From contig JAGBCL010000049.1 of NCBI GenBank assembly GCA_018110825.1, forward strand, positions 1 to 54,676: DNA of 54,676 bases. Direction: 5' to 3'. The position numbers were made by a program, and so were the translations under genes. Of this stretch, positions 27,538-50,910 are shown one piece after another; position 1 is the first letter of the stretch, and each line of letters starts with the position of its first letter. This DNA comes from Oscillospiraceae bacterium (GTDB lineage Bacteria > Bacillota > Clostridia > Oscillospirales > Ruminococcaceae). The notes beneath the pieces were generated by a model. The model was not told the DNA's origin, did no database searches, and saw nothing but the letters and a program-made list of their open reading frames with translations.

Positions 27538-27912
27538 TTGAATCGCCTCCTAATTAATCTCGATGATGTTTTCGGGGACGAGGTTTGTGATATTCATATT
27601 TACGTCACTTTCACGTCACACGTTACCGTGTGTTTCGCGACCAACTTATTAAAAAACCCGAAAAACAAGCTGTTTTCCGAGTACATTCAAACACAAGCTT
27701 ACCTTTGAGAAGACACAGGACTCCCCACGGTTTAAGCACACACAGTGTTCGATATCACAGCCGCCCGACTCTCAGGTCAGACATACTCCACGGAAATTCC
27801 CCTGCAAACCGCAGGCCACCTTCCGCTTCCTCGCAAAAACATATAAAATACGGTGTAATCAGCCACCGTAAACAGCTACAATTTCTGTAACTGTCGCAGT
27901 CACGCAAGAAAT
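27538..27912 (-). ncRNA. Long leader of the S10 ribosomal operon with a putative attenuator
   Basis: About 370 nt of transcribed leader between the promoter and rpsJ. In transcription order it has ACGGTGG/CACCGT-type stem (27851-27869), CTGC/GCAG, a candidate antiterminator strand AAGCTT (27695-27700), the terminator-like hairpin 27659-27679 with T6, a CACACG/CGTGTG stem (27617-27632) and a CTCG/CGAG stem just before the ribosome-binding site. I do not recognise a named ribosomal leader family. No ORF with a ribosome-binding site was seen. Confidence 0.55.
27651..27679 (-). terminator. Intrinsic terminator/attenuator in the S10 leader
   Basis: Nine-base-pair stem (one G-U) CGGAAAACA / TGTTTTTCG with a 3-nt loop, followed on the minus strand by GTTTTTT. 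AGCTT within it can instead pair with AAGCT of 27695-27700, giving mutually exclusive structures. Confidence 0.6.
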
Positions 27913-38555: not shown

Positions 38556-39165
38556 AAATTATAATTTAGCACAACAATAACTATCAGTGTTAGCGAAGCG
38601 GCATTAAAAGTTTCGTCCACCTTTTCAAAGGTGGTAGGGGTCAAGGGGGCAACGCCCCATTGGTCGCCAAAACCATTCTTCGAATGGTCTACGCAAGCGG
38701 CGAAATACCCCTTGCAGTCAAAAACGGAGCAGGAGGTGAGGAAACCGACAGGTTTCCGATGGAGAAAAGAGTTCCGCTTTGCGGAACTCTCAGACAATGC
38801 TTTGCATTGTCTTGGACAATGACCGCTTCTCCTTGTTGCAATCACATCAAAATCATCTCTCAAAAACGTGCCAGTGGCACGTTTTTGACGCACTTTATCT
38901 TTATAACTATACAAAAGCAGCAACTTCGTTGCTGTTAGGGATTTTCTCTCTTGCAGAAAATCCCTCTTTCGCAACACAGTTGCGAAATTCACCCTTTAGA
39001 TGCGCTTAAAGCACGCCTGCGGGCGAGGTTAAGCATTTCGCTGCCTGCGGACAGCGATTTAGGGGCGTTGCCCCTAAAAACCCTACCAAAGGGGACACCG
39101 TCCCCTTTGGAAACCCATAGCCGCATTGCTAACACTGCAACAAATCGTGCGCTAAATTATAATTT
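38556..39165. repeat. Family-2 hairpin-array element, copy A
   Basis: 610 bp filling most of an 816-bp gap. Both ends are AAATTATAATTT within imperfect terminal inverted repeats of about 47 bp (38556-38602, 39119-39165). Inside are about twelve consecutive hairpins, e.g. AGTTCCGC/GCGGAACT, GACAATGC/GCATTGTC, AAAACGTGCC/GGCACGTTTT (38862-38886), GGGATTTTC/GAAAATCCC (38938-38964), AGGGGC/GCCCCT. Short frames on the plus strand lack ribosome-binding sites and are not conserved as protein. Confidence 0.8.
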
Positions 39166-39250
39166 CCCCCACTTGTGCATAAACAAATCCGCCGCACAGG
39201 TCACCCCATGCGGCAGATACTCTCTCTTAACGAATATTGGAAATATCGTT

Positions 39251-40267
39251 TTATCCTAAAATATATACATTTACGTCACGTCTGCCCCAGTTGTAGCACT
39301 CGCTCTCTGTGTCCATATAAAGGTCAACAAGAACTCTGCCACTTCTCATTGCACTGCCCGTATCCTCTGCAACTGCATAACCGTATGTTCTTGTGCCGTC
39401 TACGGAAACAATGTAAAGCTCTGTTCCGTAAGGAATTACCTTAGGGTCAACAGCTACATAGCCAACCTGCGGAACCTTACCTGTGGAAGTGATTGAACCT
39501 GCTGCTGCGGAGTAAGCTGTTGCCTCACCCGTAATCACATCAACATAATTCACCGGAATACCGTTTGCATCAAGCTCAACGTCCTTGCTGCCGCTTGTCT
39601 GACCTGCAGGAACAGCCTTTTCATAAACAGGCTCTTCCATTGTGCCTATAACGATAACCTCGTCAACAGGCTCTGTAATATCTTCATCAATGACGTCGGA
39701 GGAAACAAGCTCACCGTCTATATAAACGTGACGGAAAGTTGTTTCGACCTCGCCTTCTTCACCGTCAACTACAGTTTCGGTATATCCGACGAGCTGCTCG
39801 TCGTCTTCTCGATACTTTGTAGCGTATTCAATAACCTCAACCTGTACTTCTTCAACAATGTTGACGCGGTTTATAATAATTTCGGTTCCGCTGCCTAAGG
39901 GCTCGCTCAAACCGATATTGATAAGGTCTTCATTTTCCACCTTGACGCCTGCCGCATCAAGAGCATCAGCAACATTACCTGCACACTTTACACAGATGTT
40001 CTTTCCGTCAACTGCAATAGTAACATCAAATTCCTTAGCAGGCATTTCAGCAACAACAGCTGCCTTTTCTGTTCCTGCAGGAAGTGCTGTAAGGGCAACA
40101 GCTGTGTCCTCTTTATTCATAACAGCCGCCGCACAGATTGAAACAGTGCCGATTGCAAGGGCACTTACGGTTGTTACAACAGTTTTGATTTTTAAGTTCT
40201 TTAAGATTTTCTTACAATTTTCCGCAGTGTCGTTGATAACAGAGCGTTTATTTGCATTATTACTCAT
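39251..40267 (-). CDS. DUF348-G5-3D cell-wall protein (RpfB/YabE-like)
   Basis: 338 residues. A membrane anchor (28-50) is followed by a DUF348 domain (81-125), a G5 domain (about 133-209) and a C-terminal 3D domain (247-337) with the three conserved Asp (AVDP, EDTG, VDLYMD). Such proteins are lytic transglycosylase-like enzymes acting on peptidoglycan during growth. It has a consensus promoter at 40347-40375, so it is probably well expressed. Confidence 0.88.
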   Translation of the reverse strand: MSNNANKRSVINDTAENCKKILKNLKIKTVVTTVSALAIGTVSICAAAVMNKEDTAVALTALPAGTEKAAVVAEMPAKEFDVTIAVDGKNICVKCAGNVADALDAAGVKVENEDLINIGLSEPLGSGTEIIINRVNIVEEVQVEVIEYATKYREDDEQLVGYTETVVDGEEGEVETTFRHVYIDGELVSSDVIDEDITEPVDEVIVIGTMEEPVYEKAVPAGQTSGSKDVELDANGIPVNYVDVITGEATAYSAAAGSITSTGKVPQVGYVAVDPKVIPYGTELYIVSVDGTRTYGYAVAEDTGSAMRSGRVLVDLYMDTESECYNWGRRDVNVYILG

Positions 40268-40346
40268 AAAGGACTCCTTTCAAAATTTATTGCACACATT
40301 CGGTTACAATATAGTTACAAAAGTAACCGTTCAGCAACTTTTTAAC

Positions 40347-40375
40347 ATTATAGTTATCACACCGCTGTTTGTCAA
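40347..40375 (-). promoter_or_regulatory. Consensus sigma-A promoter of the 3D-domain gene
   Basis: Minus-strand TTGACA (40370-40375) and TATAAT (40347-40352) with a 17-bp spacer, a perfect match to consensus. Confidence 0.8.
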
Positions 40376-40737
40376 GACTTTTCAAAGCCACATTTTTGTG
40401 CATATTACACAAAAACGCTGTAAAAAGCTGTATATTTAAAGGAATTAAATTCCATTTATCGTGGGAGAGTGTCAAAATCCACAGCAATTTTTTAGACATT
40501 TCCGCTAAATCGGCTTTCGGGTAAAACCCGCAAATTGCCATAAAAAAGAAATTATGTAAAATACAGTAATTTATGTTGACAATTTTCAGGCTGTTTTTAA
40601 CACTTCCGACGTTTTGTTTCGGCAAAACTGACAAATCTGTCTTGTGTTTTTGTAGCATTTTGGTTTGAAATTTTTGTGTCAATTTCCGCAACCCCTGAAA
40701 AAACCTGGATTTGAGCGCATAAAACGATAAAAAACTA

Positions 40738-40766
40738 TTTACTATTCCGTAATTATATATTATAAT
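40738..40766 (+). promoter_or_regulatory. Promoter of the 57-residue membrane peptide
   Basis: TTTACT (40738-40743) and TATAAT (40761-40766) with a 17-bp spacer on the plus strand. Confidence 0.5.
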
Positions 40767-40805
40767 AGTATAGGAAAACAACTTCATTAAAGAAAGGAAT
40801 TTATT

Positions 40806-40979
40806 ATGGAAAACAACATCGAAAAAAGAAACGAATCCATTGAAATGCTGAAAACAACAATCGCAGTATGTGCAGCACTGGTGCTTTTCCTTGCATCCGC
40901 AGGCTTTATTGTGTACAAGTCCATTTCCGCCTACCGCCACAACGAACGCTGGAAGGACTACGACGAATGTGGCATCTGA
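40806..40979 (+). CDS. Small single-span membrane peptide
   Basis: 57 residues, start MENNIEKRNESIEMLKTTI, one membrane helix (about 19-38, AVCAALVLFLASAGFIVY), then a charged tail ending DYDECGI. AAAGGAA precedes ATG and a promoter lies 40 bp upstream, so it looks real. No family recognised. Its stop codon sits in a palindrome (ATCTGAAGCC/GGCTTCAGAT). Confidence 0.65.
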   Translation: MENNIEKRNESIEMLKTTIAVCAALVLFLASAGFIVYKSISAYRHNERWKDYDECGI

Positions 40980-40995
40980 AGCCGAAGGCTTCAGA
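40970..40995. repeat. Inverted repeat across a stop codon
   Basis: ATCTGAAGCC GAA GGCTTCAGAT; the first arm includes the last Ile codon and TGA stop of the 57-residue gene. Confidence 0.8.
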
Positions 40996-40996
40996 T

Positions 40997-41116
40997 GAAT
41001 GAGGAATTAGGAATGCGGAATTAGGAATTAATGAGTTCGGCTACGCCGAATATGCTTAATATTTGTCAGCTGCAATGCTATAATTTCACTTTTCTAATTC
41101 CTAATTCCAAATTCCA
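40997..41116. repeat. Family-1 palindromic repeat, copy c
   Basis: About 120 bp with AGGAATTAGGAAT arms and a TTCGGC/GCCGAA hairpin. It fills the gap between the small peptide gene and the amidohydrolase and leaves about 20 bp for the ribosome-binding site. Confidence 0.75.
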
Positions 41117-41136
41117 GAAAGGATACTATTATATAG

Positions 41137-42297
41137 ATGTTTTTATACAATGCTAAAATTTATCCGCAGGGCAAAAATGCATCTGCAATCCCTTGCGGTT
41201 ACATTTACATCGAGGACGGCAAAATCGCTAACGTTGCCGCAGGTACACCTCTCAAAGTTACCGACGAGGATATCGACCTGCACGGTCTGCGTGTTTATCC
41301 GGGCTTTATCGACATCCACACCCACATGGGTCTTATCGGTGACGGACAGGGTGCAGAAGGGGAGGACGTCAATGAGGACAGCGACCCCATTACTCCACAC
41401 CTGCGTACAATTGACGGGCTTTGCTTTACCGACGGCTATTTTGCCGACGCTGTAAAGGCAGGCGTGACAACCTGCGTAACGGGTGTAGGCTCAACCAATC
41501 CAATCGGCGGCGACCTTATCGCCGTACACACAAGCGGCAGATGTGCCGATGAAATGCTTGTGAAGCGTGTGGGAATAAAATTTGCTCTCGGTGAAAATCC
41601 GAAATCGACCTTTGCCGACAGAGACACCGCCCCTATCACACGAATGGCAACCGCTGCACTTATCCGTGAAGCACTCTACAAGGCAAAGCGTTACGCTCAG
41701 GACAAGGCTGACGCTGAAGAAAGCGGCGAGTCCCTGCCCGAGTATGATATAAAATCCGAGGCGCTTATTCCGCTTCTCAATCGTGAAATCAAGGCGCATT
41801 TTCATTGCCACCGTGCCGATGATATCATGACAGCGGTACGAATTGCCGAAGAATTCGACCTTGACTACGTCCTTGTACATTGCACCGAGGGGCACAAGGT
41901 TGCCGACCTGCTTGGCGAAAAGGGTGCATCTGCGGTTGTCGGGCCAATCATCTGCGACAGGGGAAAGCCCGAGCTTGCAGGTCTGACCGTAGCAAACGCA
42001 GGCATACTATATAATAATGGTGTGGACGTTGCAATCTGCACCGACCACCCAGAAGTGCCGATACAGTATCTTCCCGCAAGTGTCGCTTTCTGCGTAAAAG
42101 AAGGCTTGCCAAAAGAAGCGGCAGTCCGTGCCATAACATCAACAGCGGCAAAAATCGCAGGCATTGACAGCCTTGTGGGTGATATCGCCGTGGGACGGCT
42201 TGCTGACCTTACAATTACAGACGGCGACCCGCTGGAAATTATGACGAACGTAAAAATGACAATTATCGAAGGTAAGGTTGTTTACAATAAAATGTGA
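41137..42297 (+). CDS. Amidohydrolase (imidazolonepropionase-like)
   Basis: 386 residues, metal-dependent TIM-barrel hydrolase. The metal motif HTH is at 61-63 (FIDIHTHMG), with later ligands in AHFHCHRADD, LVHCTEGHK and CTDHPEVP, and the C-terminal GDIAVGRLADLTITDGDP strand typical of the superfamily. Substrate cannot be told; a cyclic amide or dipeptide is likely. AAAGGA lies 13 nt before ATG, rather far. It is followed by fumarase alpha on the same strand. Confidence 0.85.
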   Translation: MFLYNAKIYPQGKNASAIPCGYIYIEDGKIANVAAGTPLKVTDEDIDLHGLRVYPGFIDIHTHMGLIGDGQGAEGEDVNEDSDPITPHLRTIDGLCFTDGYFADAVKAGVTTCVTGVGSTNPIGGDLIAVHTSGRCADEMLVKRVGIKFALGENPKSTFADRDTAPITRMATAALIREALYKAKRYAQDKADAEESGESLPEYDIKSEALIPLLNREIKAHFHCHRADDIMTAVRIAEEFDLDYVLVHCTEGHKVADLLGEKGASAVVGPIICDRGKPELAGLTVANAGILYNNGVDVAICTDHPEVPIQYLPASVAFCVKEGLPKEAAVRAITSTAAKIAGIDSLVGDIAVGRLADLTITDGDPLEIMTNVKMTIIEGKVVYNKM

Positions 42298-42411
42298 AAA
42301 GTGAAAAGTGGAATGAGGAATTAATGTTGTCGGCTTCGCCGACAATTTAAAATTCGTCCGCCAAAGGCGGACACAATAATTTCACTTTCCTCATTCCTAA
42401 TTCCACATTTT
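42298..42411. repeat. Family-1 palindromic repeat, copy b
   Basis: Begins directly after the TGA stop of the amidohydrolase and is nearly identical to 1-118 (differences such as TTTGCCGAC versus TTCGCCGAC). It ends about 20 bp before the fumarase start. Confidence 0.85.
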
Positions 42412-42431
42412 CCAAAAGAAAGGATGTTATC

Positions 42432-43274
42432 ATGCGTGAAATAAACGTAACAGAAATAGAAAACGCTGTTCGTGACCTGTGTATCAAGGCAAACCGCTTT
42501 CTCCCCAAGTCCCTTGTGGACTGCATAGGCTGTTCGGTAAGCTGTGAAAAGTCACCGACGGGCAGGGAAGTTCTTGCCGACCTGATGAAAAATATCGAGG
42601 CGGCTGAAACGGAAAATCTCGCTGTCTGTCAGGACACGGGAATGGCTGTAATTTTCCTTGACATCGGTCAGGACGTCCACTTTGTCGGCGGCTCGCTTTA
42701 CGAGGCAATCAACAAAGGCGTGTCCCGCGGCTATACCGAGGGTTATCTCCGCTGTTCAATCGTATCCGACCCTATTGAGCGTGTCAACACGGGGGACAAC
42801 ACTCCAGCCGTAATACATACACGTATTGTTGACGGCGACAAGGTTTCCATTTCCGTTTGCCCAAAGGGTTTCGGCAGTGAAAATATGTCAAAAATGAAGA
42901 TGTTTACGCCTTCCGCAACAATCGAGGAAATTGAGAATTTTGTCGTTGAGGTTGTGTCCGTTGCAGGAAGCAACCCCTGTCCGCCAATGGTTGTTGGCGT
43001 AGGTATAGGCGGCGATTTTGAGCACTGTGCTTATCTTGCAAAGAAGGCTTTGTGCCGTGACGTTGCCGAGAAAAATCCGAAGCAGCTTTACGCTGACATG
43101 GAAAAGAATATTCTTGTCAAGTCCAATAAGCTTGGCATTGGCCCTCAGGGCTTCGGCGGAACAACTACCGTTCTCAGCGTTGCAATCGAGCAGGCACCCA
43201 CACACATCGCAGGTCTGCCCGTAGCTGTAAACATCGGCTGCCACGTTACAAGACACGCTCATAAGGTACTCTGA
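42432..43274 (+). CDS. Class I fumarate hydratase alpha subunit / tartrate dehydratase alpha-like
   Basis: 280 residues. Cysteines C66 (AVCQDTGM), C183 (NPCPPMV) and C270 (NIGCHVTRH) would hold a [4Fe-4S] cluster used to dehydrate a hydroxyacid. The full-length enzyme needs a beta subunit, which is not next to this gene: it is followed by a terminator and an opposing gene. AAAGGATG precedes ATG 42432. Confidence 0.88.
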   Translation: MREINVTEIENAVRDLCIKANRFLPKSLVDCIGCSVSCEKSPTGREVLADLMKNIEAAETENLAVCQDTGMAVIFLDIGQDVHFVGGSLYEAINKGVSRGYTEGYLRCSIVSDPIERVNTGDNTPAVIHTRIVDGDKVSISVCPKGFGSENMSKMKMFTPSATIEEIENFVVEVVSVAGSNPCPPMVVGVGIGGDFEHCAYLAKKALCRDVAEKNPKQLYADMEKNILVKSNKLGIGPQGFGGTTTVLSVAIEQAPTHIAGLPVAVNIGCHVTRHAHKVL

Positions 43275-43397
43275 TTTGGGAGAGATATCATAAGCCATTG
43301 AGGGAGACCCTTTCTTCAGAAAGGTTTGCCCCAGTAGTTCACGGTATCTCTCGCAAAACAAAAGCACCTCTTTCGAGGTGCTTTTTCTTTTTCAGTT
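43275..43397. terminator. Hairpins and bidirectional terminator after the fumarase gene
   Basis: GAGAGATA/TATCTCTC arms (about 43281-43352) enclose CCTTTCT/AGAAAGG. Then AAAGCACCTC TTTC GAGGTGCTTT (43361-43384) with T-tracts on both sides terminates the fumarase gene and the opposing small gene. Confidence 0.75.
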
Positions 43398-43592
43398 TTA
43401 TGCTCTCACATCAAGGATGCTGCCCTTAGCGCCGGGGAACTTAGGAACAGAATCTATCATCTTCATCAAGCCCTGTGCCATTGTCTCTGTTGTTTCCATC
43501 GACTTTTTAGCCATTGCTGTACTAAGACCCTGTGCAAGCTTGGCGTTACTCATGCCTGTTGACATCTGAGCAATTGAAGTCATCATATCCAT
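43398..43592 (-). CDS. YjfB-like small protein
   Basis: 64 residues, Met-rich helical N-terminus (MDMMTSIAQMSTGMSNAKLAQ), ending GAKGSILDVRA. It resembles the YjfB family of putative motility-linked peptides. AAAGGGG precedes ATG. It follows a soluble chemoreceptor gene on the same strand, which fits a signalling or motility context; the evidence is moderate. Confidence 0.6.
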   Translation of the reverse strand: MDMMTSIAQMSTGMSNAKLAQGLSTAMAKKSMETTETMAQGLMKMIDSVPKFPGAKGSILDVRA

Positions 43593-43623
43593 AACGACAT
43601 CCCCTTTCTGAAAAAATTATTTC

Positions 43624-43652
43624 CAAATAATTCCCTATGGGAATTATTCAGA
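43624..43652. repeat. Inverted repeat across the PocR-receptor stop codon
   Basis: AATAATTCCC and GGAATTATT arms around ATAG on the minus strand; the first arm contains the TAA stop (43644-43646) of the gene. A second hairpin (ATTATTT/AAATAAT plus T6) just beyond it would terminate transcription. Confidence 0.75.
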
Positions 43653-44648
43653 CATATTCTTGATTTCACCGAGAAGCTCAGCAAAGCCGTTGAGGTCAGC
43701 GATACACTTGTCAACAACTTCCTTGGTATTCATAACTTCTTCGTTCATACCCTGTGAGTAATCACCGATATGCTGCATTGTCTTTTCAATCTTATCAGCG
43801 GATACCTTACTTGTTTCAGCAAGATTACGAACTTCCTGAGCGATTACGCCGAAGCCTTTACCGCTTTCCTTGGCTCTTGAAGCTTCGATGGAAGCGTTGA
43901 AGCCGAGAATCTTTGTATTGAGTGCGATATCCTGAATAACCTTGACTGTGCCCTTTGTGGAAGCAACTTCAGCAGCAGTATCTTCAGCAATCTTGTTTAC
44001 GCTTTCGAAAGTCTTGGCAAGAGTGTTGATACGCTTAACTGTGCCCTCAACAATTTCCTCAGCCTCGGCAACCTTTGCAGCCATGCCTCTGTTGATTGAA
44101 GCAAGACCTGTGTTGGACTGGTTAGCCATATAGTTGCTGTAAGCAGTCTGGGAAAGAACCTTTGCAATTGTGCAGAGGAAATCAGCAGCAAGGTCAATCT
44201 GCTTCTTTTCAACAATCTTGACCTTTCTGAGTGCTCTTATGTATTCATCAGGGTCGATGTCGAGCTCCTTTGCAATCTTGCGGAACTCATTTTCATCAGG
44301 CTTTTCAGTAAGAACCTGTCCGCCGATGAAGGAACCGATGAACTGACCGTTTACCATAATAGGAGCAGCAAAGTCAACGAGACCTGCATGGCAGAAATAA
44401 GCTGCAGCACAGCCTGTACGCATAGTCTGCTCGCCGCCTGACTTGTCACAGCTTTCGCATCTTGCGCAGCCGAGGCGGGACTTTCTTGTATAGTTCATGC
44501 AGAAATCGGTAAAGTTGCTGCCTTCTGTAACAGCGTTGCCGTCAGCGTCTGTTGTAAGTGCAGCCATACCTGTAAGGTTAGCGAAGCTGTCCTGGATTTC
44601 CTGGAGAGTCGCAACATCTATCAAATCAGTAAGTCTAATATCAGCCAT
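43644..44648 (-). CDS. Soluble chemoreceptor-like protein with PocR sensory domain
   Basis: 334 residues, no membrane helix. The N-terminal PocR domain (about 6-165) has the Cys set C50, C61, C64, C67 and C80, C86 suited to metal or ligand binding. The C-terminal methyl-accepting signalling hairpin has its tip near 243-280 (NASIEASRAKESGKGFGVIA). It would sense a cytoplasmic metabolite and signal to CheA. ATG 44648 follows GGAG. Promoter at 44713-44741. Confidence 0.88.
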   Translation of the reverse strand: MADIRLTDLIDVATLQEIQDSFANLTGMAALTTDADGNAVTEGSNFTDFCMNYTRKSRLGCARCESCDKSGGEQTMRTGCAAAYFCHAGLVDFAAPIMVNGQFIGSFIGGQVLTEKPDENEFRKIAKELDIDPDEYIRALRKVKIVEKKQIDLAADFLCTIAKVLSQTAYSNYMANQSNTGLASINRGMAAKVAEAEEIVEGTVKRINTLAKTFESVNKIAEDTAAEVASTKGTVKVIQDIALNTKILGFNASIEASRAKESGKGFGVIAQEVRNLAETSKVSADKIEKTMQHIGDYSQGMNEEVMNTKEVVDKCIADLNGFAELLGEIKNMSE

Positions 44649-44712
44649 AATAATAACTCCATTCTCCATATACGGAAAAATTGGTATAGTACACCCATAC
44701 CTTTGTACTATT

Positions 44713-44741
44713 AGGATACACTATTTGCTATGATTTGTCAA
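44713..44741 (-). promoter_or_regulatory. Promoter of the PocR receptor gene
   Basis: Minus-strand TTGACA (44736-44741) and TATCCT (44713-44718), 17-bp spacer. Confidence 0.6.
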
Positions 44742-44815
44742 GAAATTTTACCTTGGCTTAGAAAAATATGTTAAACTTGCACATAAATCAGTACAGTTTA
44801 CTGTGCGGCAAAGCC

Positions 44816-45475
44816 TTATTTTCCGCCCAATACCGCTTCGGCAAGCTGCAAAGGCGTATCAAAGACGTACTCCGCACCTGCATTTTCAAGTTCATTTTCT
44901 TCAGCGTAACCGAATTTTACTCCCGCACAATCAACACCGCAGGACTTTGCTCCGATAACATCGTGCTTTCTGTCACCAATCATCAGCACCACGCTCTTGT
45001 CAGGGTTGCCCAGCCTTTTCAGACACTCTTCAATAACTTCGGATTTTGCGTTGCGTACGCCGCTTAATTCCGCACCCGTTACAACCTCGAAATACTTAGC
45101 AAGGTCAAAATGTTCAAGAATACGGCATGCGTAAATTTCAGGCTTTGAGGTTGCAACAGCAAGACGCTTTCCGCCGTTTTTCAGCAGCTCCAAAGCTTCG
45201 GGAATCCCATCATAAACACGGTTTTCGAAAATTCCCTTTACAGGGTAACGCTCACGATAAGCCGCAACCGCCTTCACAGCATCCTCACGGCTCAATCCGT
45301 AAAAATCCATAAACGAGTCAATCAGCGGCGGACCGATAAATCGGAGCAGCTTTCTTCTGTCAGGCTCAGTAATGCCCAGCGAATTGAGAGCATGCTCCGC
45401 ACAATTGACAATTCCCTCCGCCGAGTCGGTAAGCGTACCGTCAAGGTCGAAAAGGAGAATATCGTAGTTCTTCAT
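44816..45475 (-). CDS. HAD-family phosphatase (phosphoglycolate phosphatase-like)
   Basis: 219 residues. Motif I FDLDGTLTDS (nucleophile D10, acid/base D12), motif II VATSKPE, and motif IV MIGDRKHDVIGA are present, so the enzyme should be active. Substrate unknown. AAGGAAGG precedes ATG 45475. Immediately upstream lies a family-2 element whose end carries TATAAT on the gene's strand. Confidence 0.88.
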   Translation of the reverse strand: MKNYDILLFDLDGTLTDSAEGIVNCAEHALNSLGITEPDRRKLLRFIGPPLIDSFMDFYGLSREDAVKAVAAYRERYPVKGIFENRVYDGIPEALELLKNGGKRLAVATSKPEIYACRILEHFDLAKYFEVVTGAELSGVRNAKSEVIEECLKRLGNPDKSVVLMIGDRKHDVIGAKSCGVDCAGVKFGYAEENELENAGAEYVFDTPLQLAEAVLGGK

Positions 45476-45492
45476 AGTAACCTTCCTTTGGT

Positions 45493-46025
45493 AAATTATA
45501 ATTTAGCGTACGATTTGTTGCAGAGTTAGCAACGCGGCATTAAAAGTTTCGTCCACCTTTTCAAAGGTGGTAGGGGTCAAGGGGGCAACGCCCCATTGTC
45601 GCCGCTCGCAAGCGGCGAAATTCCCCTTGCCGTCAAAAACGGAGAAAGGGGTGAGGAAACCGACAGGTTTCCGAGGGGAAGCGACCAAGAACGCTTCCCC
45701 TTGTATAGCTTACGAAAAAATTATTTCTTCAAAACGTTCCAGTGGAACGTTTTGAACGTACTTTATCTTTATAGCCCTACAAAAGCAGCAACTTCGTTGC
45801 TGTTAGGGATTTTCTCTCTTGCAGAAAATCCCTCTTTCGCAACACTGTTGCGAAATTCACCCTTTAGATGCGCTTCTCGGGCAGCGCCTGCGGGCGCAAG
45901 TAAGCGTTTCGCCCTCTGCGGAGGGCGACTTAGGGACGCTGTCCCTAAGTACCCTGCCAAAGGGGACACAGTCCCCTTTGGAAACCCATGAATTTGCTTA
46001 TCAACTGCTCGCTAAATTATAATTT
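45493..46025. repeat. Family-2 hairpin-array element, copy B
   Basis: 533 bp between the HAD and mfd genes. Ends are AAATTATAATTT; the left 38 bp match the right end of copy A (inverted) at 36 of 38 positions. Hairpins correspond to copy A but with paired changes, e.g. AAAACGTTCC/GGAACGTTTT (45731-45753) and AGGGAC/GTCCCT. The right end overlaps mfd and includes its TAA stop. Confidence 0.8.
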
Positions 46026-49000
46026 GTTTTCCCTCATAACCTTAATAACTTCCTGCATCAGCTCGACAGGCTTCTCGCCCTTCATCTTCACGGCGATGTA
46101 CGGCTTGTCACCTGCTCCGTTGACCGTGACACGGTTTCTGAAAGCCGTAGTCAAAGCATTTATCTGCGACATTTCCGCCATTTTCAGATAGAAATACATT
46201 ATGCCGCCCTTTTGCGAAATCTCTGTAATTGTCAAATCGCTTGCCATATTTCGAACAAGCGCAACATTGATAAGCCCCTGAATTGCCTTAGGCGGGTCAC
46301 CGTAACGGTCAATCAGCTCATCAAGCAAATCCATACTGTCCTCATCTGTGCGGACAGCCGCAATCTTGCGGTACATATCAAGTCTGCCTGCAAGGCTCTC
46401 GATATAGTTTTCAGGAATGTGTGCTTCAACCTGAATGTCAATCAGACAATCCTCAGGCTTCGGCGGCGGCATCTCACCCTTTTCCTCGGCAATAGCCTCG
46501 CCCAAAAGCTGTAAATACATATCGTAACCAACCGCCTCCATATGTCCGTGCTGCTTGCCGCCGAGAATTGAACCTGCTCCACGGATTTCCAGGTCACGCA
46601 GGGCAATTCTGAAACCGCTGCCGAACTGCGTAAACTCACGGATTGCATCGAGTCTGCGTGTTGCGATTTCGGTAAGGGACTTGCCCCGTCTGAATGTGAA
46701 GTAGGCAAAGGCACGTCGGTTTGAACGTCCAACACGTCCACGGAGCTGATACAATTGCGACAGACCGAGATTGTCAGCGTCCTCAATGATAAGCGTGTTC
46801 ACGTTAGGCACGTCAACGCCCGTTTCGATAAGCGTTGTACACACAAGAATATCAATTTCGTGCTCAATAAGCTGACGCCAGATTTCTGACAGCTTTTCCT
46901 CACCAATCTGACCGTGAGCAATACCAATCCTCGCATCGGGAACAAGCTCCTGAATTTTCGACGCACACAAATCAATGCTGTCGATACGATTGTGGATATA
47001 GTAAACCTGACCGCCTCGGCGGAGCTCCTTGGTAATCGCCTGTGCAATTACCCCCATATTATGCTCAATAACATAAGTCTGCACTGGGTGACGGTCGATA
47101 GGCGGCTCCTCGATAACGCTCATATCACGGATACCGCTCATCGCCATATTCAGCGTACGGGGAATAGGTGTTGCAGAAAGGGTCAGCACGTCAACCCCTG
47201 CAAAGGCTTCCTTGAAGCGCTCCTTGTGGGCAACACCGAAACGCTGTTCCTCGTCGATGATTACCAGACCGAGATTGAGGAATTTTACGTCCTTCTGAAC
47301 AAGTCTGTGCGTGCCGATAATCATATCAATTTCGCCCCGCTTCAGCTGACGGAGGATTTCCTCCTGCTGTTTCGGAGTACGGAAACGTGACAGCAGTTCA
47401 ATCTTCATCGGGAAATGCTCAAAGCGTTTCAGTGCCGTCTGATAGTGCTGCCACGCAAGAACAGTTGTCGGTGCAAGAATTGCACACTGCCTGCTGTCCT
47501 CCATGCACTTGAATGCCGCACGGAAAGCAACCTCGGTTTTACCGAAGCCAACGTCGCCGCAGAGAAGTCTGTCCATAGGGATAGGCTTCTGCATATCCTC
47601 CTTGATTTCCTGAATGGAGCGAAGCTGGTCATCGGTTTCGGAGTAGGGGAAACGTGCCTCGAAGTCGTGCTGCCAGTCGTCGTCCTCGGAGAAAGCAAAG
47701 CCCTGCGTCTGACTTCTCTTTGCGTAAAGCTTGATAAGCTCGTCAGCCATATCTTTTACAGCCTTTTTAACACGGCTTCTTGTTTTCTGCCACTCCATTG
47801 AGGAAAGCTTGTTAAGCTTAACCGAGCCGTTGTCCCTCGGACCGATATATTTCGACACCATATCAAGCTGGTTTACAGGCACATACAACACGTCTGTACC
47901 TGCATACTGAATGGTGATATAATCCTTTGTAATGCCCTCCATTTCAAGCTTGCGTATGCCAACAAACTTGCCGATACCGTGCAATGCGTGTACCACAAGG
48001 TCGCCCTGCACAATGTCGGAAAGGGACTTGATTTCCTCGCCCTTTTTGGCTTTCTTGAACTTCTTTTTTGAGTTTGCCGCCCTCGCCTGCGTGATAAGCA
48101 CCGTCTTTATGTCGGGGTAATCGTAACCTGAGCTTACACAGCCCGTTGTCAGCAGGACGTGTCCCTTTGCAAGTGCGGATTGCTCCGTCATTATTGAGCA
48201 GGAAATCCCCTCGTCCTGCAAGTCCTTTGCAATAATCGGCAGGGTCTTTTCCGAGCCTGCCATAACAATTGCGGAGTAACCGTTTCCGCAGTAGGACTGC
48301 AAATCCTCGATAAGCTGTCGGATTTCGCCGCCCCAGGGTGCTGTCTGATTTGCAGTAGCGGAAATAAGCTTCTTGAAACGCAAATCCGCACCACGGAGAA
48401 ACGTGTCAAAATGAAGCAAAGAGAAATGGCAAGCCTTTGAGTAAATCTCCCCGAAATCCAGCAGGTAGCCCTCCATACCCTTGCAGAGCTCACCTGTTTC
48501 AAGGAGCATTTTCAAGTCCTCGGCATGATGCTTCATAACGCTTGCGGACTTTTCAAGGCAGTTTGCGTACTCGCAGAAAATTACGGGACTTGCCCCGTCG
48601 AGGTAGTCGAAAATAGTCTCCGTCTTTTCGTAAGCAAAGGGCAGATACTTGTCAATGTTGCCAAGCTCAACGCCTGTATTCACACGGTCAATGTCCTTTG
48701 CCAAAGCGTTGCGGACAATCTCGGTACGCTTGCCCCTTGCCGCTGACGAAAGCTTTTCGATAACCGATTTGAGATGGTCAGCATCATCAAAAAGCGTTTC
48801 CATTGCAGGGGAAATCTCAACGCTGTCGAGAAGCTTCTCGTTGCGGCGCTGTGTTTCGATATCAAAGTTTGCGATTGAGTCAATCTCGTCGCCCCAAAGC
48901 TCAATACGTACAGGCTGTGCACTTCCCACGGGGAAAACGTCTGCAATTGCACCACGCACTGCAAACTGACTTACGCCCTCCACCTTATCGCAGCGTGTAT

Positions 49001-49481
49001 AGCCTGCCGCAATCAGCCGACGTGTAAAGTCCTCAAGCTTTACCTCGCCGCCGCTTTCAAGGGTAATCGTCCTTGATTTCAGCACCTCGCAGGGCAGGGT
49101 AGCCTGCATGACAGCCTCTGCAGAAGCACAGACAAAAATTTTCTCTCCACGTGCAAGTCTGCTCAGTACACCAAGACGTGCGTGCTCATATTCACGGGAC
49201 ACGGTTTCCACGGCTGTGAAAGTGAAATCTTTTGCAGGATAGGTATACGCGCAAACCTCGCCGCACATTGCATTCAAATCCTCAGCAAGCTTTGAAGCCG
49301 CCGCTTCCGTGTCAAAAATCATCAGCACGAGTGCGTCCGTAAGCAAGCCGAGAGCAAACTGTGCCTTGTGAATTGCCGAAACGCCCGAAACGGAAACGGG
49401 TGTGTGCCCGAATTTCACCGCTTCAAGCATATCACGGTACGGCGTAAAATTTTCTATTGCAGATTTAAAGATAGTTGACAT
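46017..49481 (-). CDS. mfd: Transcription-repair coupling factor
   Basis: 1154 residues, full length. UvrB-homology N-terminus, then the RNA polymerase-interacting domain, then RecG-like helicase with Walker A GDVGFGKTEVAFRAAF and Walker B IDEEQRFGV, and a C-terminal TRCF domain. It removes stalled RNA polymerase and recruits UvrA. The last two codons and stop (AAA TTA TAA) lie in the end of a repeat element. AGAGGT precedes ATG. It follows pth, as in other Firmicutes. Confidence 0.97.
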   Translation of the reverse strand: MSTIFKSAIENFTPYRDMLEAVKFGHTPVSVSGVSAIHKAQFALGLLTDALVLMIFDTEAAASKLAEDLNAMCGEVCAYTYPAKDFTFTAVETVSREYEHARLGVLSRLARGEKIFVCASAEAVMQATLPCEVLKSRTITLESGGEVKLEDFTRRLIAAGYTRCDKVEGVSQFAVRGAIADVFPVGSAQPVRIELWGDEIDSIANFDIETQRRNEKLLDSVEISPAMETLFDDADHLKSVIEKLSSAARGKRTEIVRNALAKDIDRVNTGVELGNIDKYLPFAYEKTETIFDYLDGASPVIFCEYANCLEKSASVMKHHAEDLKMLLETGELCKGMEGYLLDFGEIYSKACHFSLLHFDTFLRGADLRFKKLISATANQTAPWGGEIRQLIEDLQSYCGNGYSAIVMAGSEKTLPIIAKDLQDEGISCSIMTEQSALAKGHVLLTTGCVSSGYDYPDIKTVLITQARAANSKKKFKKAKKGEEIKSLSDIVQGDLVVHALHGIGKFVGIRKLEMEGITKDYITIQYAGTDVLYVPVNQLDMVSKYIGPRDNGSVKLNKLSSMEWQKTRSRVKKAVKDMADELIKLYAKRSQTQGFAFSEDDDWQHDFEARFPYSETDDQLRSIQEIKEDMQKPIPMDRLLCGDVGFGKTEVAFRAAFKCMEDSRQCAILAPTTVLAWQHYQTALKRFEHFPMKIELLSRFRTPKQQEEILRQLKRGEIDMIIGTHRLVQKDVKFLNLGLVIIDEEQRFGVAHKERFKEAFAGVDVLTLSATPIPRTLNMAMSGIRDMSVIEEPPIDRHPVQTYVIEHNMGVIAQAITKELRRGGQVYYIHNRIDSIDLCASKIQELVPDARIGIAHGQIGEEKLSEIWRQLIEHEIDILVCTTLIETGVDVPNVNTLIIEDADNLGLSQLYQLRGRVGRSNRRAFAYFTFRRGKSLTEIATRRLDAIREFTQFGSGFRIALRDLEIRGAGSILGGKQHGHMEAVGYDMYLQLLGEAIAEEKGEMPPPKPEDCLIDIQVEAHIPENYIESLAGRLDMYRKIAAVRTDEDSMDLLDELIDRYGDPPKAIQGLINVALVRNMASDLTITEISQKGGIMYFYLKMAEMSQINALTTAFRNRVTVNGAGDKPYIAVKMKGEKPVELMQEVIKVMRENKL

Positions 49482-49500
49482 AAAATACCTCTGTTCAAAT

Positions 49501-49585
49501 TTGAAATTGGGAATGTGGAAAGTGGAATTGAAAAAACTGACCGTGTGTAATTAATTCCTAATTTCACTTTCCTAATTCCAAATTC
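49501..49585. repeat. Family-1 palindromic repeat, copy d
   Basis: About 85 bp between mfd and pth with GGAATGTGGAAAGTGGAATT and CTAATTTCACTTTCCTAATT arms; it abuts the pth stop codon. Confidence 0.7.
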
Positions 49586-50215
49586 TTAACTATTATACAA
49601 GTTCATCGCCTCGTCGGTCTTGCCCTTTACCATAAGCTCAACCGAAGCAACAGCCTTGTCTGTGCCCTCGTTCATCTTTTCCATTTCTTCCTTTGTAAAA
49701 TGGGACAGCACCCAGTCAGCAAGGTTGTAATCCTTGTGCGGCTTCTTGCCGACGCCGATTTTCACGCGTGGGAAGTTGTCAAATCCCGTAAGATAAATAA
49801 TGGACTTGATACCATTGTGACCGCCGTCCGAGCCTTTGCGGCGGATGCGGATAAAGGACGGCTCAAGGCTGATATCGTCATAGCAGACAATAACCTTTTC
49901 GGCAGGAATCTTGTAGAAATTCATCGCCTCAACAACCGCCTCGCCGCTGTTGTTCATAAAGGTTGTAGGCTTCATCAGCAGGCAGGGCACACCGTTCACC
50001 ACAGCGTCAGCCGTGTTGGACTTGAAGCGGAGTTTTTTTATCTGCACGCCGCACTTTTCCGCAAGCTTGTCAATAGCCATAAATCCCGCATTGTGACGTG
50101 TACCGTCATATTTTTCGCCTATGTTGCCCAAGCCGACAATGAGATACTCAGGCTTTGCACCGACAGGCGCTTCCTTTTCCTTGCTAATCTGATTGAAAAT
50201 ATCGAAAATGCTCAT
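49586..50215 (-). CDS. pth: Peptidyl-tRNA hydrolase
   Basis: 209 residues. It frees tRNA from prematurely released peptidyl-tRNA. The core begins at EYLIVGLGNIGEKYDGTRHN, with the catalytic His, after an N-terminal extension of about 20 residues not found in most homologues. ATG 50215 with AAAGGA upstream is used; longer frames run into the repeat. Confidence 0.96.
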   Translation of the reverse strand: MSIFDIFNQISKEKEAPVGAKPEYLIVGLGNIGEKYDGTRHNAGFMAIDKLAEKCGVQIKKLRFKSNTADAVVNGVPCLLMKPTTFMNNSGEAVVEAMNFYKIPAEKVIVCYDDISLEPSFIRIRRKGSDGGHNGIKSIIYLTGFDNFPRVKIGVGKKPHKDYNLADWVLSHFTKEEMEKMNEGTDKAVASVELMVKGKTDEAMNLYNS

Positions 50216-50910
50216 TTTATTGTTCCTTTCAAAAGTTGTAAAACCCCAAAATAACGGGTTTCCAAAGGGTGTGCGCACCCTTTGGTGGGGTCTTTAGGGG
50301 CAACGCCCCTGAATCGCTCGTCGCAACGAGCGAAACACCCCTATCGTTCAAAAACGGAGAAAGGGGTGAGGGAACCGACAGGTTTCCGATGGGGAAAAGA
50401 GTTCCGCTTTGCGGAACTTTCGGACAATGCTTTGCATTGTCTTGGACAATGACCGTCCCTCCTTGTATGGTTTACGCAAAAACCTTCCTCCCAAACGTGC
50501 CAGTGGCACGTTTGGGACATAGTTTACCTTTATCATCAAACAAAAGCAGCAGCTCCGCTGCTGTTAAGGACGCCCTCTCTTGCAGGGCGTCCCTCTTTGC
50601 AACAAGTTGCAAATTCACCCTTGCGGAGCGCTTAAAGCACGCCTGCGGGCGAAGTAAGAATTTCGCTCTCCTGCTCAAAACAAACAAGTTTGTTTGCGAT
50701 TCAGGGGCGTTGCCCCTAAAAACCCCACCAAAGGGGACACCGTCCCCTTTGGAAACCCATTATCTTTTAGGTTACCAAAAAACTACGGCGTTTTGCGAAG
50801 CAAAACCCGTAACCGAAAACTTGTTTTCGGTTTTAAACCACGATAACCCCTAATCCGCACACATAGGGTATGCGGACAAGGGGTGAATTACTATATGTAT
50901 TATATCGGAA
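50216..50910. repeat. Family-2 element copy C and family-3 copy 3 between prs and pth
   Basis: 50255-50760 is the third hairpin array, without AAATTATAATTT but bounded by GGGTTTCCAAAGGG (50256-50269) and CCCTTTGGAAACCC (50745-50758). Stems differ but remain paired: GGACGCCC/GGGCGTCC (50568-50592), CCCAAACGTGCC/GGCACGTTTGGG (50490-50516). 50781-50838 is a family-3 repeat (TACGG.GTTTTGC/GCAAAAC.CCGTA then CCGAAAAC/GTTTTCGG). 50845-50885 is a CCGCATA/TGTGCGG-type hairpin after prs that may be its terminator. Confidence 0.75.

Follow-up and report, generated by a model that had tools for sequence, protein, structure and literature searches.

Bacterial miniature inverted-repeat transposable elements (MITEs) are short and gene-free, have terminal inverted repeats, occur in many copies and are polymorphic in their insertions (abstract of the review PMC10969869). 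The three hairpin arrays described here, copies A, B and C, share these properties and are members of a dispersed, genus-wide family of small, gene-free, MITE-like DNA elements of Ruminococcus-type gut bacteria. They were found in contig JAGBCL010000049.1 of an Oscillospiraceae bacterium (assembly GCA_018110825.1), positions 1 to 54,676, and this stretch of 54,676 nucleotides is called the window. What sets the arrays apart from MITEs in general, as far as described there, is their set of about twelve internal hairpins, several of which have conserved loops and concerted stem changes. No earlier description of the family was found among the papers listed in searches of the open-licence PubMed Central (PMC) literature.

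The double-hairpin elements of fungal mitochondria and the small dispersed repeats of cyanobacteria are likewise hairpins that proliferate and insert into other repeats, and their loops are conserved while their stems vary. They are much smaller than the arrays, belong to an organelle or to another phylum, and are not known to have a link to terminal repeats or a transposase. Pneumococcal BOX elements (67-637 bp) resemble the arrays in being modular and intergenic, with terminal inverted repeats, a variable module content and stem-loops if transcribed (excerpts of PMC3049150). When compared by description only, BOX elements differ in their host, while the halves of the arrays are diverged inverted homologues around a palindrome, and their stems differ as blocks.

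IS1272, of the IS1182 family of insertion sequences (IS), targets stem-loops of unrelated sequence and replaces them (Wan et al. 2017, PMC5678879, here and below from parts of that paper). None of the three new IS1272 insertions was accompanied by a target duplication, and duplication of the whole stem-loop at both ends appears in the model only as an alternative (pathway b). Loci that look hairpin-duplicated at both ends, as in pathway b, are found among relatives of the window genome (4 of 34 and up to 10 of 44; see below). There, half-elements have the same ends as IS1182-family IS and adjoin terminator hairpins. Unlike IS1272, the arrays are gene-free and are themselves arrays of hairpins, and the copies in the window have other ends and no duplication. 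Other IS1182 members may already be known for long or hairpin-containing repeats; a single literature search showed none among the papers listed. Finally, hairpins maintained by template switching have perfect stems that change by several matched bases without visible intermediates, as the arrays do, but the hairpins in the excerpts of PMC8794818 are described for RNA genes (rRNA), not for a mobile repeat family.

Dispersal and mobility of the arrays

An earlier note, made from the sequence alone, had reported three homologous hairpin-array copies with arms altered in matched pairs. The copies are confirmed on the plus strand (strand of the left half) at 38556-39165 (A), 45493-46025 (B) and 50248-50769 (C); the bounds 50255-50760 given before for C were corrected on the basis of the short terminal repeat read there (AAAATAACGGGTTTCC...GGAAACCCATTATCTTTTA). 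All four arm pairs that had been quoted lie in hairpins, at most a few bases from where the note had placed them: GATTTTC/GAAAATC in A (38940) and B (45808) versus GACGCCC/GGGCGTC in C (50569); CGTGCC/GGCACG in A and C versus CGTTCC/GGAACG in B; CAGCAAC/GTTGCTG in A and B versus CAGCAGC/GCTGCTG in C; and AGGGAC/GTCCCT in B. The alternative form of the last pair, AGGGGC/GCCCCT, is present in A and also in C. Over an ungapped block of 122 nt, B is 89% and C 77% identical to A. The three are full elements, and the genome has further copies: with copy B as the DNA query, 36 segments were returned from it, which were read as 20 full or partial copies.

The arrays are non-coding, as the earlier note had proposed. 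The open reading frames (ORFs) over A, B and C (102, 131 and 194 aa) have only stretches of 21-35 residues in common, so protein coding was rejected, and no transposase gene was seen inside the copies upon reading of the ORFs. A leader peptide starting from GTG or ATG after the internal linker was also rejected, because the following stem (l5) has 7 or 8 bp and the frame is lost. No known RNA family had been recognized, and Rfam indeed has no match over A to C at gathering scores, with none for copy B at E-values up to 1. The sole gathering-level Rfam match within the window is an S10-Clostridia ribosomal protein leader (27761-27839, minus strand).

Copies A and B end in terminal inverted repeats (AAATTATAATTTAGC), as is typical of MITEs. 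In A they lie at 38556-38571 (AAATTATAATTTAGCA, plus strand) and 39150-39165 (minus strand), and in B at 45493-45508 (plus) and 46010-46025 (minus). Non-palindromic variants of the repeat are inverted rather than direct (loci L045, L056 and L072). The ends of C are of a different, short type. The dinucleotide TA lies immediately outside 30 of 37 terminal repeats, compared to 5.3% of AA dinucleotides preceded by TA in the window. This TA may be a target-site duplication or may belong to the repeat itself, and a clean pair with an empty site was found for neither A nor B. Copy B lies between the 3' end of mfd and the start of a HAD-family gene, and the stop codon of mfd falls inside its terminal repeat. 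Copy C lies between prs and pth.

Dispersal, presence or absence among close relatives, in-place inversion and reuse of half-modules are all observed. In the prs-pth gap, the site of C, nothing matching A, B or C was seen for 10 of 12 readable relatives (8 of the 20 relatives were unusable, with prs unmatched or pth outside the stretch). One of the ten is genome G017, with a 100% identical prs protein. Two further genomes (G007 and G009) have half-elements in the gap, a left and a right half. Copy C is thus present or absent at orthologous sites, as expected for a MITE. The counterpart of copy A in G004 is found at the same locus with collinear flanks, but the element is inverted (blastn 1-562 versus 2036-1541). 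Left halves occur in either orientation (left gene on plus for 36 and on minus for 37 of 112), and a strict strand bias of all halves was not found, as judged from the left ones. Where both neighbours were called, location between divergent genes was seen for 0 of 24 left halves, 1 of 14 right halves and 2 of 11 elements of genome G006.

Copy B had matches in at least 18 of 41 genomes among the first relatives; the window genome is one of them, and the matches represent 2 of 21 genera. The covariance model built on the left half (R1) matched at least 4 of 148 genomes sampled across the taxonomic family, namely the window genome, G001 from the same genus, G143 and, weakly, G173, and a model of the right half (R2) matched at least 19 of 21 genomes of the genus; the R1 survey used stricter filters than R2, and copy numbers and absences are approximate. 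In G006, at least 117 right-half matches were obtained among 150 scored candidates, which is a massive amplification with many copies having identical cores. A pattern scan of GTDB contigs returned 105 stretches, all from metagenome-assembled genomes (MAGs) titled Ruminococcus sp., Oscillospiraceae bacterium or Clostridia bacterium. Viral spread was rejected upon scanning IMG/VR with a single pattern (0 matches).

Two other dispersed repeats were encountered. An unrelated MITE (AATGTGAAAAGTGG..., about 145 bp long and containing a CGGCTTTGCCG hairpin) is located at 1-139, 40998-41134 and 42291-42430 of the window. Four of its genomic copies elsewhere (L074, L076, L077 and L078) are flanked on both sides by AAATTATAATTT, the sequence at the end of arrays A and B; therefore, one transposase may move both families. 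The sharing had suggested that AAATTATAATTT is a target duplication. This was rejected, because its variants are inverted between the two ends. A third dispersed repeat consists of two hairpins (AACGAACGC..GCGTTCGTT and TACGGGTTTT..AAAACCGTA) and is found at 1180-1230 and between prs and copy C (about 50780-50850), as well as at L047, L081, L200 and L207. Its stems also differ among copies.

Architecture and stem changes

The full element consists of two diverged homologous half-modules, arranged inversely around a central palindrome (c) and enclosed by the terminal inverted repeats. Within either half, the outer hairpins (o1-o2-o3) are followed by a linker, GGTGA, that resembles a Shine-Dalgarno sequence, by two further hairpins (l5-l6 on the left, r5-r6 on the right) and then by c; the mirror half has an additional hairpin, r7. 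The loop of l5 is GACA or GATA, and that of r6 is mostly GCAAGAG. Reading of the copies revealed the arrangements L-c-R, L-c-c-L and R-c-R as well as lone halves.

Copy B illustrates this order. Its left half, on the plus strand, has o1 (CCACCTTTTCAAAGGTGG, 45553-45570), o2 (45582-45594) and o3 (45599-45618), all assigned by sequence reading, then the linker l4 (GGAGAAAGGGGTGA, 45641-45654), l5 with the loop GACA and a stem that varies among copies (45655-45672), and l6 (45675-45700), followed by c (CAAAACGTTCCAGTGGAACGTTTTG, 45730-45754, plus strand). On the minus strand, the right half has r7 (45786-45802), r6 (45806-45832), r5 (45835-45855) and its linker (AAAGGGTGAA on that strand, 45856-45865); r6 and r5 are the positional homologues of l6 and l5. 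The right outer hairpins, listed on the plus strand, are o3 (45909-45928) and o1 (45957-45981), both from sequence reading, and o2 (45932-45946). For l5, l6, c, r6 and r5, pair counts and covariation are available. Extra hairpins are nested in hairpin loops of A and C (about 38760-38830, 50395-50460 and 50660-50700). The nesting sites are the l6 loop (A and C) and o3 (copies A, H, C, I and M), as if hairpins were insertion targets.

Copy B folds strongly on both strands (-244.9 kcal/mol on plus, -243.4 on minus; z-scores versus shuffles of -12.58 and -12.65, with 0 of 100 shuffles as good), which would be expected for a run of palindromes. The arms covary beyond a tree-aware null: for 79 distinct left halves (of 107 rows, from 112 halves before filters), values above all those from 60 null alignments evolved on the tree were obtained for 7 of 29 helix pairs. 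Covariation is supported by shuffling as well (score 0.321 versus 0.123 for left and 0.496 versus 0.213 for right halves, with 0 of 500 shuffles as high). Of the nine highest-scoring pairs, eight fall within helices; the remaining one, which joins the linker to l6 (E 0.017), is the sole non-helix pair with E < 0.05.

The stems are close to perfect, with 98-99% Watson-Crick pairing. Watson-Crick pairs account for 821 of 824 in l5 (0 GT, 0 AC, with coordinated indels in the arms), 914 of 922 in c (GT 1, AC 4), 296 of 296 in r5 and 327 of 336 in r6 (GT 4, AC 2); the searches for these stems demand some pairing (at most 2 mismatches for l5, a score for r5 and r6, at least 8 of 11 for c). In the pool of the four, GT (5) and AC (6) are about equally rare among 2378 pairs, compared to GT 15, AC 3 and 15 other mismatches among 288 pairs in 24 tRNA genes of the loci analysed. 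This control is small, and since the tRNA stems were delimited by position, its number of other mismatches may be inflated. An excess of GT over AC, as expected for a conserved structured RNA, is not seen for l5, c, r5 and r6 against this control. Hairpin l6 is looser (1028 of 1120 Watson-Crick, GT 8, AC 78, other 6); its AC cells stem mostly from a single column that closes the loop (52 of the 79 distinct rows) and was excluded from the GT/AC comparison.

In G006, entire stems are replaced. Among the 25 commonest flank/stem combinations of 45 elements, 15 copies are identical over 72 nt around r5, yet they contain six perfect r5 hairpins with four stems, including GCCGC and GCAACC. The outer arms of c (n=44) are GCC/GGC in 21 and GCA/TGC in 21 elements (mixed 1, other 1), and each matched form occurs with most r5 types. 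Such replacements within fixed flanks are not easily obtained by stepwise compensation. The earlier note had read the double changes as selection on base-pairing (RNA or cruciform DNA), and selection on an RNA was not supported: GT is about as rare as AC, stems are replaced wholesale with identical flanks, and copy A is inverted in G004. Template switching is a published route to multi-base matched changes (excerpts of PMC8794818), and exchange of whole hairpins between copies likely complements it.

IS1182-type ends and terminator hairpins

In relatives, half-elements have ends of a different kind. Those of G006 start with a CAGNYTGTCGA-like sequence and end with TTTATCGACAAGCTGA; 55 sites were found at up to 2 mismatches, compared to 0 for the reversed pattern. 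Of 45 G006 elements, 9 had a left end and 15 had a right end that the script for end recognition detected. The right end adjoins a stem of at least 7 bp in 11 of these 15 cases (control: 825 of 5000), and in 14 of 16 cases in the MAG RGIG8511 (control: 641 of 4000).

A gene for an IS1182-family transposase (L369, NF033551, 392 bits with a cut-off of 270) was identified in G012, in an element of 1491 bp that reaches the contig end. The element ends are TCAGCTTGTCGAAAAAG...TTTTTCTACAGGCTGA (TCAGCTTGTCGAAAAA type), and the TTTTTCTACAGGCTGA end is beside a terminator hairpin. By reading, the half-elements of G006, RGIG8511 and the MAG SUG2049 have these ends in common with L369. There are four PF13751 loci; three were read for their ends, and only that of G012 matches, the fourth (L371) being below the cut-off.

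At four loci, the terminator hairpin occurs in full to either side of the element (L120, L187 and L189 in RGIG8511, L159 in SUG2049). This corresponds to 4 of 34 loci, compared to 0 of 1122 cross-locus pairs. For G006, a score-based scan (58 of 60 loci, L336 and L337 being left out, with 44 elements with flanks kept) indicated flanking duplication for 10 of 44 elements, compared to 44 of 1892 in the control; of the ten, L310 is an AT-rich match and not a hairpin, and the hairpin of L298 is weak. Duplicated terminator hairpins around half-elements were seen at the G006 loci L278, L281, L285, L297 and L315; at L285 and L315, matched changes in both arms have made the duplicated stems differ since. 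One analysis of 20 loci used 19 of these (L289 is cut by a contig end).

The half-elements of G006, RGIG8511 and SUG2049 thus share the ends of an IS1182-type element and are inserted at stem-loops, as expected for IS1182-derived MITEs. For these, an IS1182-family transposase that recognizes stem-loops as targets is the most likely enzyme. It would insert beside intrinsic-terminator hairpins and may duplicate an entire hairpin. The IS1182 account applies to relatives of the core and not to A, B and C, because the copies in the window have other ends and no duplication, and no partner was found among the transposase families searched. With ends of the type TA|AATTATAATTTAGC (A and B), they are presumably moved by another transposase. 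As to other partners, IS630 was rejected (PF13358 in 0 of 21 genomes), as was an autonomous G006 element with paired ends (no facing ends 1-3 kb apart among the end sites listed, considering end positions only).

Weighing the explanations

We consider it probable that the arrays form a genus-wide family of non-autonomous, non-coding mobile (MITE-like) DNA elements, that their stems change as DNA blocks, and that an IS1182-type enzyme acts on the half-elements. In the DNA, each hairpin would be altered as one block, by template switching within a hairpin and by exchange of whole hairpins between copies, and the stems would stay perfect for this reason. The earlier note had named a MITE with hairpins explained otherwise as an outcome that would speak against its reading, and this is largely what was found.

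Several observations weigh against this reading. On the side of mobility, 34 of 44 G006 elements have no detectable flanking duplication and G006 has no PF13751 match. In the window genome, hairpin duplication was seen for 0 of 16 copies tested, and none of the three transposase families searched for (PF13751, PF13358 and PF01797) gave a match. For the sole IS with matching ends, the contig stops at the left end, so that the left flank is unseen. The titled genomes of relatives are all MAGs, and repeats break such assemblies. On the side of the stems, l6 without its loop-closing column leans to GT (7 versus AC 4, distinct rows), and G-U cells on MAFFT alignments number 3 of 363 (A1, left) and 11 of 412 (A2, right), part of those in A2 being from base-shifted rows. 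The variation of the stems does not extend to the loops of l5 and r6 or to the GGTGA linker, which are conserved; this suggests a recognized function, with something (RNA or protein) still constraining the hairpins. Right halves favour the sense orientation (left gene on plus for 19 and on minus for 5 of 33; for G006, 12 and 4 of 44). Finally, the linker class (AGGAGG or AAGGGG) agrees with the class of the l6 arm in 48 of 49 distinct combinations, even though four l5 types were found with both linker classes, as alternative pairing at the RNA or DNA level would give. This coupling spans l5 (e.g., 45641-45700 of the window), and the two segments may pair alternatively.

The latter points are those on which a large structured RNA would rest, either a cis-acting element in 3' untranslated or intercistronic regions or a small RNA, with each half as one domain and the linker pairing alternately with the 3' arm of l6 as a switch. 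The covariation above all null alignments and the absence of a retained reading frame agree with it. Rare GT pairs compared to tRNAs, left halves in both orientations, the inversion of A in G004, polymorphic insertions, stems replaced between identical flanks and the absence of an Rfam match speak against it, and we regard it as unlikely; the linker-l6 coupling and the sense preference of right halves may nevertheless reflect an RNA role. Somewhat better placed, though still doubtful, is a purely mutational origin of the covariation, in which quasi-palindromes of any hairpin are corrected by template switching during replication, with neither a function nor a specific recombination enzyme. This mechanism is published (excerpts of PMC8794818), and it accounts for the near-absence of intermediates, the coordinated arm indels in l5 and the matched divergence of duplicated terminator stems. 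However, template switching copies one arm onto the other and alone does not yield unrelated r5 stems such as GCCGC and GCAACC within identical flanks, and it leaves conserved loops, spread and terminal repeats unexplained. Transposition through single-stranded DNA with a RAYT (Y1) enzyme, as for repetitive extragenic palindromes and the mosaic elements made from them (REP/BIME), would fit hairpin-rich, mosaic, intergenic elements in many copies. It is very improbable, given that Y1_Tnp is found in 4 of 21 genomes of the genus and in neither the window genome nor G004, G001, G003 and G006, all copy-rich. Moreover, the family shows terminal inverted repeats and hairpin target duplications, and Y1 elements are not known to produce these.

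Returning to a MITE-like family with stems that change as DNA blocks, it is tempting to speculate, though we would not expect it to hold, that the stem-loop itself is the exchangeable unit: an IS1182-type transposase or linked repair would swap and nest hairpins with the flanks kept fixed and would capture or duplicate terminators, and arrays would in this way assemble, invert and diversify. The duplicated loci are evidence, from sequence, that a terminator hairpin can be duplicated in its entirety by elements with IS1182-type ends; the IS1272 work (parts of PMC5678879) drew this outcome as a possibility but did not report it. The family is also a warning for RNA discovery. It shows strong tree-aware covariation, yet DNA block replacement explains the signals at least as well as selection on RNA. 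With at least 117 model matches, G006 makes both this warning and hairpin duplication testable. If stem-loops are exchangeable units, mobile DNA hairpins would give rise, as a by-product, to the kind of covariation from which RNAs are called.

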